Shown piece after piece: positions 4,396-13,817 of a DNA stretch of 32,349 nt (position 1 is its first letter; each line of letters opens with the position of its first letter). Location: NCBI GenBank assembly GCA_025056965.1, contig JANWVF010000010.1, forward strand, positions 1-32,349, in the 5' to 3' direction. The notes under the pieces are model-generated. The model saw only the letters and a list, made by a program, of their open reading frames with translations, made no database searches and was not told the DNA's origin. The position numbers and the translations under genes are program-made. Source of the stretch: Thermoflexales bacterium. GTDB taxonomy: Bacteria > Chloroflexota > Anaerolineae > J036 > Brachytrichaceae.

Positions 4396-6027
4396 TCATA
4401 CCCAGCCGAGCGCACGCGCGACCACGGCGCCTGCGACGGCAACGATGAGGCATCCGCCCATGAGGGCATTCGGGCTGGCCCGCCGCGAGCGCAGCAGCCA
4501 TCCCATCCCCAGCGTCGCCACCAGCGGCAGCGCGCCGGGCAGCATCGCGTCTAGCACGCGCGTCTGCACCGCCAGCTGCGTCGCGCCGATCTGGATTACG
4601 CCGGCGCCGGGCAGGCTAATCGGGACGAGCGCGACTACCAGTCCGCCTAGCACGAACGCCCCCAGGCGCATCGCGCCGAAGAGGGCCGGCCGCAGCCAGT
4701 TGTTGGCGCGCGCCCAGTCACCGAAGCGACGCACTTGCGCATAGCCGAGTTGAAAACCGGCGAACCCGACCGCCAGCACAAGCGCTGCTTGGGCGAACGC
4801 AAATATGAACGGCCCGATCAGGCTGCCGCGCTCCGCCAGCGCTGCGCCTGCGGCGACCAACAACGAGCCGACCGCGTTGAGCATGACCGTCGCACCGATT
4901 GCGTTTAGGCCGACCATAGCGCCTGTCTTGGCGCCGACGATCTCGGCGTCGTTGATCGCTTCGCCGTTGGCGCGGCGCTCCTCGATCGCGATGAGCGCGC
5001 CGACCAGCGCCGCGCCGAAAGTCCACTCGCAGTTGAACAGAGTGAGGTTGCGCCGGAGCAACGTCACGCGCTCGCTGGCAGTTTCGCACAGCCGCTTGGC
5101 GGCCGGCACGAGTGCCGCAGCGAAGCCCATGTTCTGGAAGCGTTCAAAGTTCAGTCCGGCGTCGTGGAAGAACATCCATAGGGCGAACGACGACTGAAGT
5201 TCTGCCGGCGACAAGCGCCGCTCCGCCGCGTAGGCCTCGGCTTGATTGGAGGGCAGCACGTCGGCGATGAGCGTGTCCGCACTTGCCTCGACGCGCCGAC
5301 GGGCCAGGAAGGCGTGGATGATGGCGACGCTTGCGCCGAGCAGCGTCGCTTGCACGACGCCTAGGTAAGGCGCGCTCAGCCATCCCAATAGGAAGTAGGC
5401 CACGCTGCTGCCCTGCATCACCAGCCGCAGGCTCATGGCGATGCCCAGCGCGGCGAGTAAGTCGCGGCTCCAGTTCATCGCCAATTGCACCCAGGCGGGG
5501 ATGGATGTGGCGATGCCGGCGATGGTCGGCGCGTCGAAGAGCAGGATGAACAGCGCCGGCAGGAACGACGTGAGTATCACCCACAACTGGGTGGGGACGA
5601 CATTGAGCAGTGCAACGACGTCGGCGTTGCCCTGATCAGCGAAGTAGTCGGCCCAATGCGCGACCACCGTGTTGAACATCCCGCGCGTGAAGTTCAGCAC
5701 GACTCCGAACACGACCAGCGCGCCGAACAGCGCCGCCGTCTCCGGCGCTTCCGGACGCAGGCCGCTCAGCAACATGAGCGGGACGCCGACGTAGCCGATG
5801 AGCGCGATGTCGGGGCCCACCGGCACGCGGAGCTGGCTGAGGGCGAGCACGCCCAGATTGAGCGCGCCGCCGATCTGGGCGCCGCGCAGCGGATCGCCCA
5901 GCAACGCACCCGCGATCGTGCCGGCGACGAGCGGCTGAGCCAGCACATAGCCGCCCAACCCGGCATTGAAGGCCGACCGAGCGAATGCATAGAACAAGGC
6001 GATGAGCGCAGCTTGCAGGACGCTCAT
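4396..6027 (-). CDS. Fused PTS mannose-family IIC-IID membrane protein without IIA/IIB
   Basis: A 543-residue membrane protein with two recognisable parts. Residues about 15-240 match the EIIC of the mannose/sorbose (EII-Sor) family: AQPLVAGTIAGALLGDPLRG, QIGGALNLG, VPVGPDIALIGY. Residues about 272-543 match EIID: NFERFQNMGFAAALVP (293-308), the RRNLTLFNCEW region, IEERRANGEAINDAEIVGAK, and the C-terminal VLDAMLPGALPLV (491-503). In normal PTS these are separate genes next to soluble IIA and IIB that carry phosphate from HPr; none are in this window. The EIID segment that usually reads like MGPLAGIGD is MVGLNAIGA here, so the conserved Asp is missing. A phosphorylation-independent transporter is inference. 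The gene starts 6 bases after the MBL-fold gene. Confidence 0.88.
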   Translation of the reverse strand: MSVLQAALIALFYAFARSAFNAGLGGYVLAQPLVAGTIAGALLGDPLRGAQIGGALNLGVLALSQLRVPVGPDIALIGYVGVPLMLLSGLRPEAPETAALFGALVVFGVVLNFTRGMFNTVVAHWADYFADQGNADVVALLNVVPTQLWVILTSFLPALFILLFDAPTIAGIATSIPAWVQLAMNWSRDLLAALGIAMSLRLVMQGSSVAYFLLGWLSAPYLGVVQATLLGASVAIIHAFLARRRVEASADTLIADVLPSNQAEAYAAERRLSPAELQSSFALWMFFHDAGLNFERFQNMGFAAALVPAAKRLCETASERVTLLRRNLTLFNCEWTFGAALVGALIAIEERRANGEAINDAEIVGAKTGAMVGLNAIGATVMLNAVGSLLVAAGAALAERGSLIGPFIFAFAQAALVLAVGFAGFQLGYAQVRRFGDWARANNWLRPALFGAMRLGAFVLGGLVVALVPISLPGAGVIQIGATQLAVQTRVLDAMLPGALPLVATLGMGWLLRSRRASPNALMGGCLIVAVAGAVVARALGWV

Positions 6028-6033
6028 CCGGGA

Positions 6034-7095
6034 TCACCGTCCTTTCGCTTTGCTTTTCTTGGACGCTTTGCTTTTCGAGGCCGCTTTGCGCTTGCCGGCC
6101 TTGCTCTCTTTGTCGGTCGCCTTCGACTTGGACGATCGTTTCTGCTTGGTCTTTTCCTCGTCGGACTTCGCAGAGCGCTTGGTTTCGTCCTTTCGAGCAG
6201 AAGCCGCTTTCTTATCCGTCTTCGACCCCGCGACGGCGGACGAGGCTCGCGCCCCCTCGGCGGTCCGGGCGGCCATCAGCCGGTCATACGTCGTCAGCAC
6301 GTTTGCCAGGTGAAGCGGCACCGCTGCGCCGTTGAGAAGCACGCGCGATAGGCCGCACTGCTCGATCGTGATGGCCTTGGCCTCGTCGCGGCTGCCGCCG
6401 GCCTCAATCAGCTTCTGCACCTTGTTGCGGAGGTTGTCCAAGTAATTGACCTGCCGGCGCAGCGTGTCGCGAATCTCACCGCGCAAGATGATCTCGCCGT
6501 GCCCTTGCACGATGTTCTCCAGTTGCATCGCGCCGATGGTTTCGATGGACTTTTTGAGCTGCTCCGGGTCGCCGTTGGTGATGGTCGGGATGGCCATCAC
6601 GGTGTCCCCGGAGAACAGGATGCGTTCCTCGTGGAGCAGCACCGAGACGCAATCCGGCGTGTGGCCGGGCGTGTGGATGACCTCCAGCGTCTTGCCCGGC
6701 ATGCGCAGCGTCACGCTGTTCGCCGTGAAAGTGAACGTCGGCAGCCGAAGCTGAACCGGCGCTAATTCCGGCGATTGTTCTTTGGCGCGCTGCAGGGCGG
6801 CGAAGCCGCGCTCGATCAAGATCTCGCGCGCCATTTCATGAGCGATGATCTCGGCTTTCGGGAAGAAGAATGCCCCATAAACATGGTCGGCCTCGTGGCC
6901 GGTGTAAATTACGAAGCGCACTCCGTCCGGGCAACGCTTGCGCGCAAACAAAGCAATCTGCGCTGTTTCGTTGGGGAATGGGAGGGTGTCAATCAAAACG
7001 CCCGTGCTGCCGGAGACGATTAGGCTGGCGGTTACTTGTGCGTAGCGGTCGCTAGTGAAGATGTAGATGTCCTCCGAAGCCCGTTCCCAGTGCAT
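6034..7095 (-). CDS. Metallo-beta-lactamase-fold hydrolase with lysine-rich C-terminal tail
   Basis: A 353-residue protein. Residues about 1-275 form an MBL-fold hydrolase: YTGHEADH (64-71), HTPGHTPD (H145), LFSGDT (D164), VQGHGE (H199), followed by a helical region. The first metal motif departs from THxHxDH: the two usual His positions are G66 and E68, with His offset at 67; D70 and H71 are kept. Residues about 282-353 are a low-complexity tail very rich in Lys, Ser and Ala, like the tails of histone-H1-like proteins; it could bind nucleic acid or another polyanion, but this is inference. It is the first gene of a minus-strand run with the PTS-like, MFS and phosphoesterase genes, and a 24-bp palindrome lies 3 bases before its start. 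Confidence 0.88.
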   Translation of the reverse strand: MHWERASEDIYIFTSDRYAQVTASLIVSGSTGVLIDTLPFPNETAQIALFARKRCPDGVRFVIYTGHEADHVYGAFFFPKAEIIAHEMAREILIERGFAALQRAKEQSPELAPVQLRLPTFTFTANSVTLRMPGKTLEVIHTPGHTPDCVSVLLHEERILFSGDTVMAIPTITNGDPEQLKKSIETIGAMQLENIVQGHGEIILRGEIRDTLRRQVNYLDNLRNKVQKLIEAGGSRDEAKAITIEQCGLSRVLLNGAAVPLHLANVLTTYDRLMAARTAEGARASSAVAGSKTDKKAASARKDETKRSAKSDEEKTKQKRSSKSKATDKESKAGKRKAASKSKASKKSKAKGR

Positions 7096-7098
7096 ATA

Positions 7099-7122
7099 TC
7101 ATGAGCATACCTAAGCTCATGA
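7099..7122. promoter_or_regulatory. Perfect 8-bp inverted repeat before the MBL operon
   Basis: TCATGAGC and GCTCATGA are separated by 8 bases and lie 3 bases upstream of the ATG at 7095. The surrounding 7096-7155 stretch is AT-rich in a GC-rich window, as expected for a promoter. On the minus strand a weak TTGCAT-N17-TATGCT promoter places its -10 inside the repeat. The repeat could be a repressor operator or an mRNA hairpin covering the start region; sequence alone does not decide. Confidence 0.5.
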
Positions 7123-7207
7123 CGTAATGCAAATTTGATGACATAAATATTCAAGCGCTACCCCTTGCCGCTCTGCTTGCCGTCGGAAGTGCAGACTGGC
7201 TTCACCT

Positions 7208-8083
7208 TCACGCGCTGACCAGCATCCGATAAGTGTCGGGCCGGCGTTGTTCAAGTAGGGGAAAGAGGGCGCGCCAAAACGCCATGACGCTGAAATCTAA
7301 GTCTGCGACCAGCGTAGCCGGCCGGCTGCGCGGCGCGCGAGCGATGATGCGGCCCGTCGGGTCGCAGACGAAGGATGACCCGTAGAATTGAACCAGCCCT
7401 TCGTCGCCGGTGCGATTGACTGCCGCTACGAATATGCCGTTGGCGATGGCGTGCGCGACCATCACCGTTTGCCAGCGCGGCTGCGTGTCGAAACCGGGGA
7501 AGTCCGGCTCCGAGCCGATGGCCGTGGGGTAGACGATGAGCTCTGCGCCTTTCAACGCGCAGATGCGCGCCATCTCCGGAAACCATTGGTCGTAGCACGT
7601 CGGCACGGCGACCTTGATGAACCCTAGATCGTGCACCGGATAGTCCGAGTCGCCGGGCGTAAAGTAGTAGTCCTCGTGGTAGCCGCTGCCGCGCGGGATG
7701 TGCTGCTTGCGGGTGAAGCCGAATAGGTTGCCGCGCCGATCAAAGATGACGGCGGTGTTGAAATAGCGCCCGTCCGCACGCTCGAACAGCGAGCCGATTA
7801 CGAACGCGCCGGACTCGCGCGCCAGCCCGCTGCACAGCGCGCTGGTCGGTCCGTCGCCCAACGGCTCGGCCAACGCAAAACGCGCAGGGTCTTTTATGTC
7901 GGCAAAGTAGCGATGTAGCGTGAGCTCCGGCAAGCAGATCAGCTGCGCGCCGCGCGCTGCGGCCGCCAGCACGCCGCGACGCAGCGCCTGAGCGTGGCGG
8001 GCAGGATCGGCGTGCCAGCGCTGTTGCACGAGCCCGATGCGGACGATGCGTGGGTTGGTTGGCGCGATGTTAGGCGTAGACAT
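7208..8083 (-). CDS. aguB: N-carbamoylputrescine amidase (nitrilase family)
   Basis: A 291-residue carbon-nitrogen hydrolase with the Glu-Lys-Cys catalytic triad visible: E53 in LPELTL, K126 in RKQHIP, C163 in PTCYDQWFPE. The stretch YPTAIGSEP (185-193) and the C-Y/W-DQWFPE motif are characteristic of N-carbamoylputrescine amidase, which makes putrescine from N-carbamoylputrescine after agmatine deiminase. No agmatine deiminase gene (aguA) is in this window. The N-terminal 12 residues are probably unstructured. It is transcribed divergently from thrS and separated from the MBL gene by 112 bases, so it need not share that operon. Another omega-amidase-like nitrilase function is the main alternative. 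Confidence 0.85.
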   Translation of the reverse strand: MSTPNIAPTNPRIVRIGLVQQRWHADPARHAQALRRGVLAAAARGAQLICLPELTLHRYFADIKDPARFALAEPLGDGPTSALCSGLARESGAFVIGSLFERADGRYFNTAVIFDRRGNLFGFTRKQHIPRGSGYHEDYYFTPGDSDYPVHDLGFIKVAVPTCYDQWFPEMARICALKGAELIVYPTAIGSEPDFPGFDTQPRWQTVMVAHAIANGIFVAAVNRTGDEGLVQFYGSSFVCDPTGRIIARAPRSRPATLVADLDFSVMAFWRALFPLLEQRRPDTYRMLVSA

Positions 8084-10898: not shown

Positions 10899-12905
10899 GT
10901 GGTTGCAGGTGTGCTGGGGGTATTTGTGGGTGTGGTCAACATCGTCACGGCGCAGCCCATGGAGCGCGTCATCGCGCCCAATGAAGAAAGCGGCACAGAA
11001 AAGGGTGTAACTGTGGGCGCAGCTCATCTCCAAAGCACCGTTGTCGCGCTCGCGGCAGGCGCGGACTACAACTGCGCAGTGATGAGTGGAGGGCAGGTGT
11101 ATTGTTGGGGCTCAAACCAATACGGCCAGCTCGGCATCGGCGTAGCCACAAGCACCGCCTATCCAACGCCGCGGCTGGTAAGTTCCGTAAACGGGGTCGT
11201 GGCAATTGCTGCGGGCTGGCGGCACACTTGCGCAGCGACAAGCTCGGGGCAGGTGTACTGTTGGGGGTTGAACCACGATGGCCAGCTTGGCAACAGCACG
11301 CACTTTGGGACATACCATCCCAGTCCAACACCGACGCTGGTAGCTAACTTAAACGGAGTTGTCGCGCTCGCAGCAGGGCATGCGCACACTTGCGCACGAA
11401 CGAACACGGGACAGGTTTATTGCTGGGGCTGGAACCGATACGCCCAACTTGGCAACGAAATGATCTTCAACCCTAGTCCGACCCCGACGCTGGTGAATAA
11501 CCTGATTGGTGCTGCAGTGCTTCCTGGGGCAGGCAGCTCGCACACCTGCACAACAATAAGCTGGGGACAGCTCTATTGTTGGGGGCAGAACCATTATGGC
11601 CAGCTTGGCATCAGCCTACATGTCGATTCCTACGCTGGCGTTGCGACGCCGACGCTGGTGAGCGGCATAGGTGGAGTCACGGCACTTGCGCTGGGCGGGT
11701 CTCACACTTGCGCGGCGGCGAGCGGGCACGCCTATTGCTGGGGATGGAACCAGTATAGCCAGCTTGGCAACCATACGAACGTCGGCACGAGCTATCCCGT
11801 GCCAACGGTGACGATGGTGAGTGGTCTACCTTCTTCAGTGGCTGCACTTGCAACAGGCCGAAATCACACCTGCGCGGCAACCAGCATGGGATCGGTGTAT
11901 TGCTGGGGATGGAACCAGTATGGCCAGCTTGGGAACACGGCAAGCAACAACCACAATCCCTTTCCGAATCCGCAGCTCGTGCTCGATGTAAGCGGGGTCA
12001 CGGCGCTCGCGGCAGGAGATTACCACACCTGCGCGCTAGCAGGCGGGGAAGTGTATTGCTGGGGTTCGAACGACCAAGGCCAGCTTGGGAATACAGTGGG
12101 CGGCATTGACGCGACGCCGCGGAGGGTGGACTTCTTTCCCAACCCGCCCGGAGCATTCAGCAAGATTGGGCCTTCAAACGGGACTGTGACGCATTCGCTG
12201 CCCATAACCTTGCGATGGCAACCGGCAAGTGGGACGGTGAATCACTACCGTTTCTGCTACGATGGAATCCCCGGATGTACGCCGAACCAGCAGGCGACCA
12301 GCACGGAAGCGACCATACCTTGGATGGGAATGGGGGGGACATTCTACTGGCAGGTTCGGGCGTGCGCGAACGTGGACTGCACGATATACACCGATGCCAG
12401 CAACCCACACTGGTCGTTCGTCTTGTGGCACAGTGTCCCACCAAACACCGGGGTGGGCAACACGCCTGGGCAGGACGATGCCGATCTCGTTGCTAATCAC
12501 TTTGGCACATCAAAAGCAGCCTCGCCGACGACCGTCATGGTGAACGAGCTGGTGACCTTTACACTGACGTTGATGAATGGGTCGGCATACACAGCAGTAG
12601 TCAACGTGACCGACACGCTCCCTGTAGGAATAAGCTATGTCGGGGTAGTTGGGTCAACACCCGCACCAATAGTGGACGGACAGGTGCTGCGTTGGGAGGG
12701 GGTGAACGTGCCGGCAACCGGGATGACGCAACTGATGTTCCGCGCGCAGGCGACGACGTTCGGGCTGTTCGAGAACAGGCTCGCGATAGGTGATCAAGAT
12801 ACGGCGTGGATATGGCCGATAAGAGGGACAGCGAGGGTGGCGGTCTTGCTGCCACACCTGCGGTTCGTGCCAATTGTCTACACAGAAGGCTATGGCGGAT
12901 CCTGA
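10899..12905 (+). CDS. Secreted RCC1-repeat propeller protein with DUF11-like domain
   Basis: A protein of about 668 residues. Residues 5-19 are hydrophobic and end at A-Q, like a signal peptide. Residues about 48-410 hold seven RCC1-type repeats, each with an HTCA-type half and a YCWGxNxxGQLG half, so every blade has a conserved Cys pair that could form a disulfide outside the cell. Residues 417-510 are a fibronectin-III-like domain ending FYWQVRACAN. Residues 540-650 resemble DUF11, common in surface proteins. The C-terminus (LRFVPIVYTEGYGGS) resembles short tails on Chloroflexota surface proteins. The only usual start in frame is GTG at 10899; the frame is open back to 10827 and encodes a basic stretch (DRKG) that would complete the signal peptide, so the true start is uncertain. 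Base and codon use differ from the housekeeping neighbours, which suggests transfer. Confidence 0.8.
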   Translation: MVAGVLGVFVGVVNIVTAQPMERVIAPNEESGTEKGVTVGAAHLQSTVVALAAGADYNCAVMSGGQVYCWGSNQYGQLGIGVATSTAYPTPRLVSSVNGVVAIAAGWRHTCAATSSGQVYCWGLNHDGQLGNSTHFGTYHPSPTPTLVANLNGVVALAAGHAHTCARTNTGQVYCWGWNRYAQLGNEMIFNPSPTPTLVNNLIGAAVLPGAGSSHTCTTISWGQLYCWGQNHYGQLGISLHVDSYAGVATPTLVSGIGGVTALALGGSHTCAAASGHAYCWGWNQYSQLGNHTNVGTSYPVPTVTMVSGLPSSVAALATGRNHTCAATSMGSVYCWGWNQYGQLGNTASNNHNPFPNPQLVLDVSGVTALAAGDYHTCALAGGEVYCWGSNDQGQLGNTVGGIDATPRRVDFFPNPPGAFSKIGPSNGTVTHSLPITLRWQPASGTVNHYRFCYDGIPGCTPNQQATSTEATIPWMGMGGTFYWQVRACANVDCTIYTDASNPHWSFVLWHSVPPNTGVGNTPGQDDADLVANHFGTSKAASPTTVMVNELVTFTLTLMNGSAYTAVVNVTDTLPVGISYVGVVGSTPAPIVDGQVLRWEGVNVPATGMTQLMFRAQATTFGLFENRLAIGDQDTAWIWPIRGTARVAVLLPHLRFVPIVYTEGYGGS

Positions 12906-13286: not shown

Positions 13287-13745
13287 TCAATCTAACGGAA
13301 TACCAATGATCGAAGCAGCCCGCTCAGGGCTAAACGCAAGCGCGGCACGCGCTTGAGCGATCGAACGAGCACCACAGAAGCGCAACAAACCGATCACGAT
13401 GTCGCGCAAGACCACCCATGCACGTGGCGCCTGGCGGCGGCGCGCCGAACAGCGGTCTTCGCCAAACTCCACATCCCGCACCCAGTGCCCGCAGTTCTCA
13501 ATCTGCCGGTAAACGTGCCCCCACCCAAACGCCCGCCTCGCCGGCGCTGCCTGCGGGGTCAGGTCGGTGATGGCATAGTGCGTGTGACCGGTCTCGACTC
13601 CGCTAGCCGTCCGCAGGCTTCGCCGTTGAATGCACAGACATTGTCCGACCTTCGGCCAGCCTAATGCTTGCAGATAGGCGTTGAGTGCGGTCGTCGCCCG
13701 CACTTGATCCTGCACCACGCGACCATGCCCAAGTTTCCCAAGCTT
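13287..13745 (-). pseudogene. ISAs1-type transposase relic (C-terminal part only)
   Basis: The minus strand encodes about 150 residues that match the C-terminal part of ISAs1-family DDE transposases: GHGRVV, a THYAITDLTPQAA stretch, then IENCGHWVRDVEFGEDR and a helical LRDIVIGLLR end. Intact members are about 350-400 residues; the N-terminal half with the first catalytic Asp residues is absent, and the open frame before about 13745 does not resemble the family. No intact copy or partner end is seen. The relic stops about 10 bases before the -35 box of the rpoB promoter. Confidence 0.75.
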
Positions 13746-13753
13746 CATAGGTC

Positions 13754-13783
13754 TTGACGCCTCGGCGCAGATGCATATACAAT
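13754..13783 (+). promoter_or_regulatory. rpoB promoter
   Basis: TTGACG (13754-13759), 18-base spacer, TACAAT (13778-13783): each box is one base from the sigma-70 consensus. Transcription would start near 13790 and give a leader of about 135 nt before rpoB. Confidence 0.7.
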
Positions 13784-13817
13784 TGCGGCGATCAAAGAGG
13801 GATGATTGCAGCACCAT

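Follow-up and report, generated by a model that had tools for sequence, protein, structure and literature searches.

Results

Organization of the locus

The window, which is the whole stretch of DNA analysed here (32,349 nucleotides), is contig 150 of a 3.13-Mb genome (G000) that is 99.4% complete. An open reading frame on its reverse strand encodes a fused IIC-IID protein of the mannose PTS type, which we named IICD. The gene just upstream encodes a metallo-beta-lactamase (MBL)-fold protein. The features of the two genes are as follows.

4396..6027, reverse strand: orphan IIC-IID fusion (IICD), 543 aa; open reading frame with Pfam EII-Sor and EIID-AGA matches and an AF2 model with the ManYZ fold (pLDDT 88)
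5317..6021, reverse strand: IIC half, residues 3-237; PF03609 (EII-Sor), E 2.9e-35
5827..5829, reverse strand: Arg67 codon, in an IIC loop with low model confidence (residues 65-71); Gly in 19/19 PTS-type sequences and Arg in 22/23 orphans
5212..5301, reverse strand: IIC-IID linker, residues 243-272; from the alignment and low model confidence (pLDDT < 50 at residues 248-262)
4420..5211, reverse strand: IID half, residues 273-536; PF03613 (EIID-AGA), E 1.4e-49
4891..4917, reverse strand: MVGLNAIGA, residues 371-379; counterpart of MGPLAGVGD in E. coli ManZ (112-120), with Ala379 in place of Asp
6034..7095, reverse strand: MBL-fold partner, 353 aa, directly upstream of IICD with a 6-bp gap; PF00753, E 6e-22, AF2 model and fold comparison
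6883..6903, reverse strand: TGHEADH, a degenerate form of the MBL motif THxHxDH; two Zn1 His lost, Asp70 and His71 kept
6037..6300, reverse strand: Lys/Arg-rich C-terminal tail of the MBL protein, residues 266-353; 33% K+R, pLDDT < 50 over residues 293-353

Elsewhere in the window lie a gene for an RCC1-repeat protein with a DUF11 domain (10899-12905) and an ISAs1-type transposase fragment (13287-13817).

IICD is a mannose-type IIC-IID fusion

Both domains of the mannose/fructose/sorbose PTS family are complete in IICD and score over the Pfam cut-offs; under the stricter NCBIfam cut-offs the scores fall short. A phmmer search with IICD matched solved ManZ and ManY chains (6k1h_Z, E 2.7e-34; 7dyr_Y, E 6e-11). 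These matches to EII-Sor and EIID-AGA confirmed the first-pass annotation, made from the letters of the window, in its claim that both mannose-family membrane parts lie in one chain. It had further stressed that the chain has no phosphorylation domains. None is present, but this is normal, because in the mannose family the phosphorylation sites are not part of the IIC and IID chains. The fusion was ruled out as a novelty as well, given that fused genes sit in ordinary PTS operons in the class Anaerolineae and in Thermoanaerobacter. What is unusual is a genome that encodes the fusion and has no IIA, IIB, HPr or EI, rather than the fusion itself or the missing domains.

The AF2 model of IICD had a mean pLDDT of 88 and a pTM of 0.87. 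Its best PDB match was the ManZ chain 7dyr_C, aligned to the IID half (Z 18.9, rmsd 4.4 over 264 residues), and in a Foldseek search ManY chains came next (TM-score, by target length, up to 0.72). The model thus predicts that IICD keeps the ManYZ-like fold in full. The description of IICD as a channel is unsupported, since the model has the fold of ManYZ, an elevator carrier.

Search for a phosphorelay

Named relatives of IICD among 84,980 genomes belonged to Candidatus Roseilinea, Thermoflexales and other Anaerolineae/Chloroflexota assemblies; PMC8446752 uses the name Roseilineaceae for the Candidatus Roseilinea family. At the window locus no IIA or IIB gene was found near IICD. Family searches for mannose-type IIA, mannose-type IIB, HPr and the EI N-terminal domain gave no match in any of the nine genomes of genus g1 (G000 and eight congeners), and EIIA_2 was likewise not found in these genomes; the same searches were positive in controls and in sister genera. 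Most of the genomes compared are metagenome assemblies, and the absence is therefore argued on nine g1 genomes rather than on one. One of the congeners is a single 4.7-Mb contig, and the PTS parts are absent there too. The earlier observation that IIA and IIB genes are missing nearby thus holds at the locus and throughout the genome, and the complete IIA/IIB/HPr/EI set that might have spoken against a PTS-free IICD was found neither in G000 nor in any other g1 genome.

The picture differs among the other genera of the family. Two more IICD-bearing genomes, G013 (g6) and G016 (g2), were without mannose-type IIA, IIB, HPr and EI. Of these four parts, genus g3 lacks only IIB, and g5 lacks IIA and IIB and keeps HPr and EI; g7 and g8 hold a full PTS alongside the orphan copy. 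Where the orphan is the only copy, IIB was missing from 16 of 16 genomes and every PTS part searched for from 11 of the 16. Among the IICD-bearing genomes of the class that lie outside the family, HPr was found in 20 of the 22 checked. One exception, G029, carries a PTS-type IICD with GVGD (L076 9973-11715, C138); HPr, EI and mannose-type IIA were not found in it, and its IIB lies on another contig. G029 may have become PTS-less independently, or its assembly may have a gap.

IICD might still be a phosphorylating PTS permease served by a donor not yet recognised or by a cryptic IIB, as the full PTS beside the orphan copy in g7 and g8 and the HPr and EI kept in g3 and g5 would allow. We consider this very improbable, as HPr, EI and mannose-type IIA/IIB are all missing from the nine g1 genomes and from G013 and G016, and selection on IICD persists in g1 (see below). 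An interaction of the orphan IICD with the complete PTS of g7 and g8 is possible.

Phylogeny and residue changes of the orphan clade

In a tree of 42 sequences the 23 orphans formed one clade with 100/100 support, and PTS-type copies from the same family fell elsewhere. On this tree, the orphan IICD had a single origin. Two fusions are present in g7 and in g8: a PTS-type copy adjoining IIB and an orthologue of the IICD of the window. Orphan-type genes (profile score of at least about 555 bits) were confined to the Candidatus Roseilinea family, the best other member of the class reaching 363 bits.

Alignment to E. coli ManZ confirmed that the MGPLAG(V/I)GD region of IID reads MVGLNAIGA in IICD. 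The Asp of this GxGD motif was present in 19/19 PTS-type sequences, E. coli ManZ included, so that the variability in PTS members that could have emptied the change of meaning was not seen. The loss proposed earlier is therefore real for the window protein (Ala379), but it does not extend to the whole orphan family. Orphans of g2, g5, g7 and g8 have D or E at this position, which ruled out Asp loss as the hallmark of the group, and members of the g1/g3/g6 subclade mostly have A, G, N, T, R or Q. Because the loss is restricted to this subclade, it is later than the origin of the orphan clade.

Other changes run through the clade: Gly67 to Arg in IIC (22/23), Arg31 to Gln in IIC (23/23) and Asn299 in IID (23/23). 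The changes at positions 67 and 31 are better clade markers than the loss of the IID Asp. Ser207, Tyr211, Trp444 and Arg454 are conserved within the orphans. A site comparison found the membrane core glycines and the IID E-R-x-Q motif kept, together with drift at some PTS-invariant positions (ManZ D120 and N73). To go by the clade-wide Arg67 and the subsequent loss of the IID Asp, the substrate may be something other than an ordinary PTS hexose; a tie between Arg67 and an anionic substrate is only a guess, because the loop that holds Arg67 has low model confidence. A reading of the sugar pocket from D25 of L. lactis PtnC (PMC10783117) proved not diagnostic, as PTS-type relatives also have no Asp there. 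The IID residue N28 of L. lactis (PMC10783117) is kept in IICD as N293.

IICD is under purifying selection

Orphan IICD was found in 24 of the 28 family genomes, a count that includes the frameshifted copy of the congener G008. That copy (L050 3502-5280 and 4454-5065; C4) is split near residue 341, through either a sequencing error or a true break. Pairwise dN/dS among g1 congeners was 0.11-0.25 for IICD, and about as low for the adjacent MBL gene. These values indicated that IICD is under strong purifying selection. The loss of the Asp in the g1/g3/g6 subclade and the one frameshifted copy are what a decaying relic of a lost PTS might leave behind. The dN/dS values, the wide retention and the constant MBL partner described below contradict such a relic or pseudogene; we ruled it out as a working explanation and give it hardly any credence.

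A constant MBL-fold partner

The first-pass annotation contained nothing of the MBL-fold gene, which is the constant companion of IICD. It lies immediately upstream in 22 of 22 readable clade loci from seven genera, at a spacing of -4 to +6 bp (4-bp overlaps or gaps of 2-6 bp), and the other neighbours of IICD vary from genus to genus. The order is unchanged in G008, whose frameshifted IICD was left out of the spacing count, and in G022 IICD lies at a contig edge and the MBL gene at the border of a different contig. A search of the loci retrieved for PTS-type copies turned up no MBL relative. The gene itself is near-universal in Anaerolineae (74/79 genomes). Its relatives there are mostly single-copy, and in several genomes an RNase H-like gene follows. 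In G003, a long antisense open reading frame (L045 6965-7897) overlaps the MBL gene and masks it from a longest-ORF caller; the gene is at 6995-8050 on the expected strand. Behind the MBL gene of G011, a 417-aa membrane open reading frame was considered as a second transporter and set aside, as it had no resemblance to IICD by eye.

The model of the MBL protein matched MBL-fold chains with Z-scores of up to 26.9, and PqsE was among the closer ones (Z 20-21). In the family, the metal-binding motif reads TGHEADH, TQHQADH or similar in place of THxHxDH, with DH, PGH, GD and GHG kept, and the MBL partner does not match the dinuclear-hydrolase signature (HxHxDH plus downstream ligands). The MBL relatives read outside the family have an intact THxHxDH and usually short tails (exceptions L115 and L126). 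The change in the active site is not strictly tied to IICD, because the Zn1 ligands are degenerate family-wide and the gene is near-universal in the class.

Every MBL protein adjoining IICD has a Lys/Arg-rich tail of about 70-150 aa. Among family genomes with no orphan IICD, the full MBL protein has an acidic tail in G021 and G025 and a weakly charged one in G011, a contrast based on three genomes from two genera. The alignment also revealed an acidic motif in the IIC-IID linker, (D/E)-T-L-x-x-D-x-L-P-S-(D/E)-Q, which most orphans keep. The basic tail, the acidic linker motif and the gene coupling together suggest that the cytosolic face of IICD may be a docking site for the MBL protein.

Two further explanations bear on this pair. 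In the first, IICD and the MBL protein no longer transport anything; IICD would be a membrane receptor or scaffold and the MBL protein a sensor or regulatory pseudo-enzyme. The lost Zn1 ligands, the drift at the positions of ManZ D120 and N73, the closeness of the signalling protein PqsE and the known non-transport role of the mannose PTS as a bacteriocin receptor (PMC8021565) all fit this. Both halves of IICD, however, are strongly conserved, core glycines and E-R-x-Q included, and the entire ManYZ-like fold is predicted to be retained, which makes a receptor unlikely, if still the first of the alternatives that we would entertain. In the second, IICD would export or exchange an acid product released by the MBL protein acting as a hydrolase. 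Acids are common products of MBL-fold hydrolases, the gene pair is coupled, and an Arg replaces the invariant Gly at position 67. That position lies in a low-confidence loop, however, catalysis by the MBL partner is uncertain, and we know of no member of the mannose PTS family that acts as an exporter; we regard export as improbable.

Discussion

We favour, as the probable explanation, that IICD is a PTS-derived, PTS-independent elevator-type carrier that is cotranslated with a cytosolic MBL-fold partner. Its IIC and IID parts would fold in one chain like ManYZ and let a small solute cross the membrane, through facilitated or secondary transport and with no phosphorylation. IICD would be made from a two-gene unit with the MBL-fold protein, which probably docks at the membrane via its basic tail and would bind, hydrolyse or gate the transported solute inside the cell. 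The analysis established the absence of a phosphorelay in g1, the single origin of the clade, purifying selection, the conserved predicted fold and the conserved coupling of the two genes; transport itself, its direction and energy source, the docking and what the MBL protein does are inferred. A more specific version, in which IICD hands the solute to a membrane-docked, cotranslated and perhaps mono-zinc MBL hydrolase, so that hydrolysis would replace phosphorylation as the trap, is doubtful in our judgement, a shade more so than the receptor and less so than the exporter.

The central idea of the first-pass annotation, that the membrane part of a PTS has been freed from phosphorylation, is well supported, because no IIA/IIB/HPr/EI set was found and the Asp is invariant in PTS-type sequences; neither of the two findings that would have told against it was made. 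Its phrase "a new kind of transporter" was overstated, because a galactitol-type PTS-less IIC carrier had been proposed earlier in Bacteroides (PMC6281302) and the passage of unphosphorylated sugars through mannose permeases has a precedent (PMC10989795). Within the open-access literature searched, what is new is a mannose-type IIC and IID pair in PTS-less genomes, as a whole clade under selection and with a constant hydrolase-fold partner. If the carrier reading is true, IICD is a natural case of a group-translocation permease turned PTS-independent carrier. PTS-linked paralogues are present in sister genera, so the steps of the conversion can be dated and tested. The MBL-IICD pair is also a starting point for studying an MBL-fold protein found in almost all Anaerolineae genomes.

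Comparison with known systems

IICD resembles E. coli ManYZ (PDB 6k1h, 7dyr) in both Pfam families, in its ManYZ-like predicted fold, in E-R-x-Q and in the membrane core glycines. It differs in being fused, in the absence of IIA, IIB, HPr and EI from g1, in the lost IID Asp, in Arg67, Gln31 and Asn299, and in its MBL partner. The fused IIC-IID permeases of Anaerolineae and Thermoanaerobacter have the same fusion order and length as IICD; unlike IICD, those examined mostly lie beside IIA and IIB and keep GxGD.

A precedent for PTS independence is a lone galactitol-type IIC homologue of Bacteroides (TC 4.A.5.1.4), from genomes with no PTS phosphoryl-transfer proteins, which has been put forward as a secondary carrier (PMC6281302). 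That protein is of galactitol type, monocistronic and without a hydrolase partner, whereas IICD joins a mannose-type IIC to IID and is accompanied by the MBL protein. A mutant GatC carried glucose in the absence of ptsHI (PMC12089948). PMC10989795, citing Chaillou 1999 and Postma, describes mannose PTS permeases that pass unphosphorylated sugars. The facilitated diffusion described there is a side activity of an intact PTS, whereas for IICD the phosphorelay is absent from the genome.
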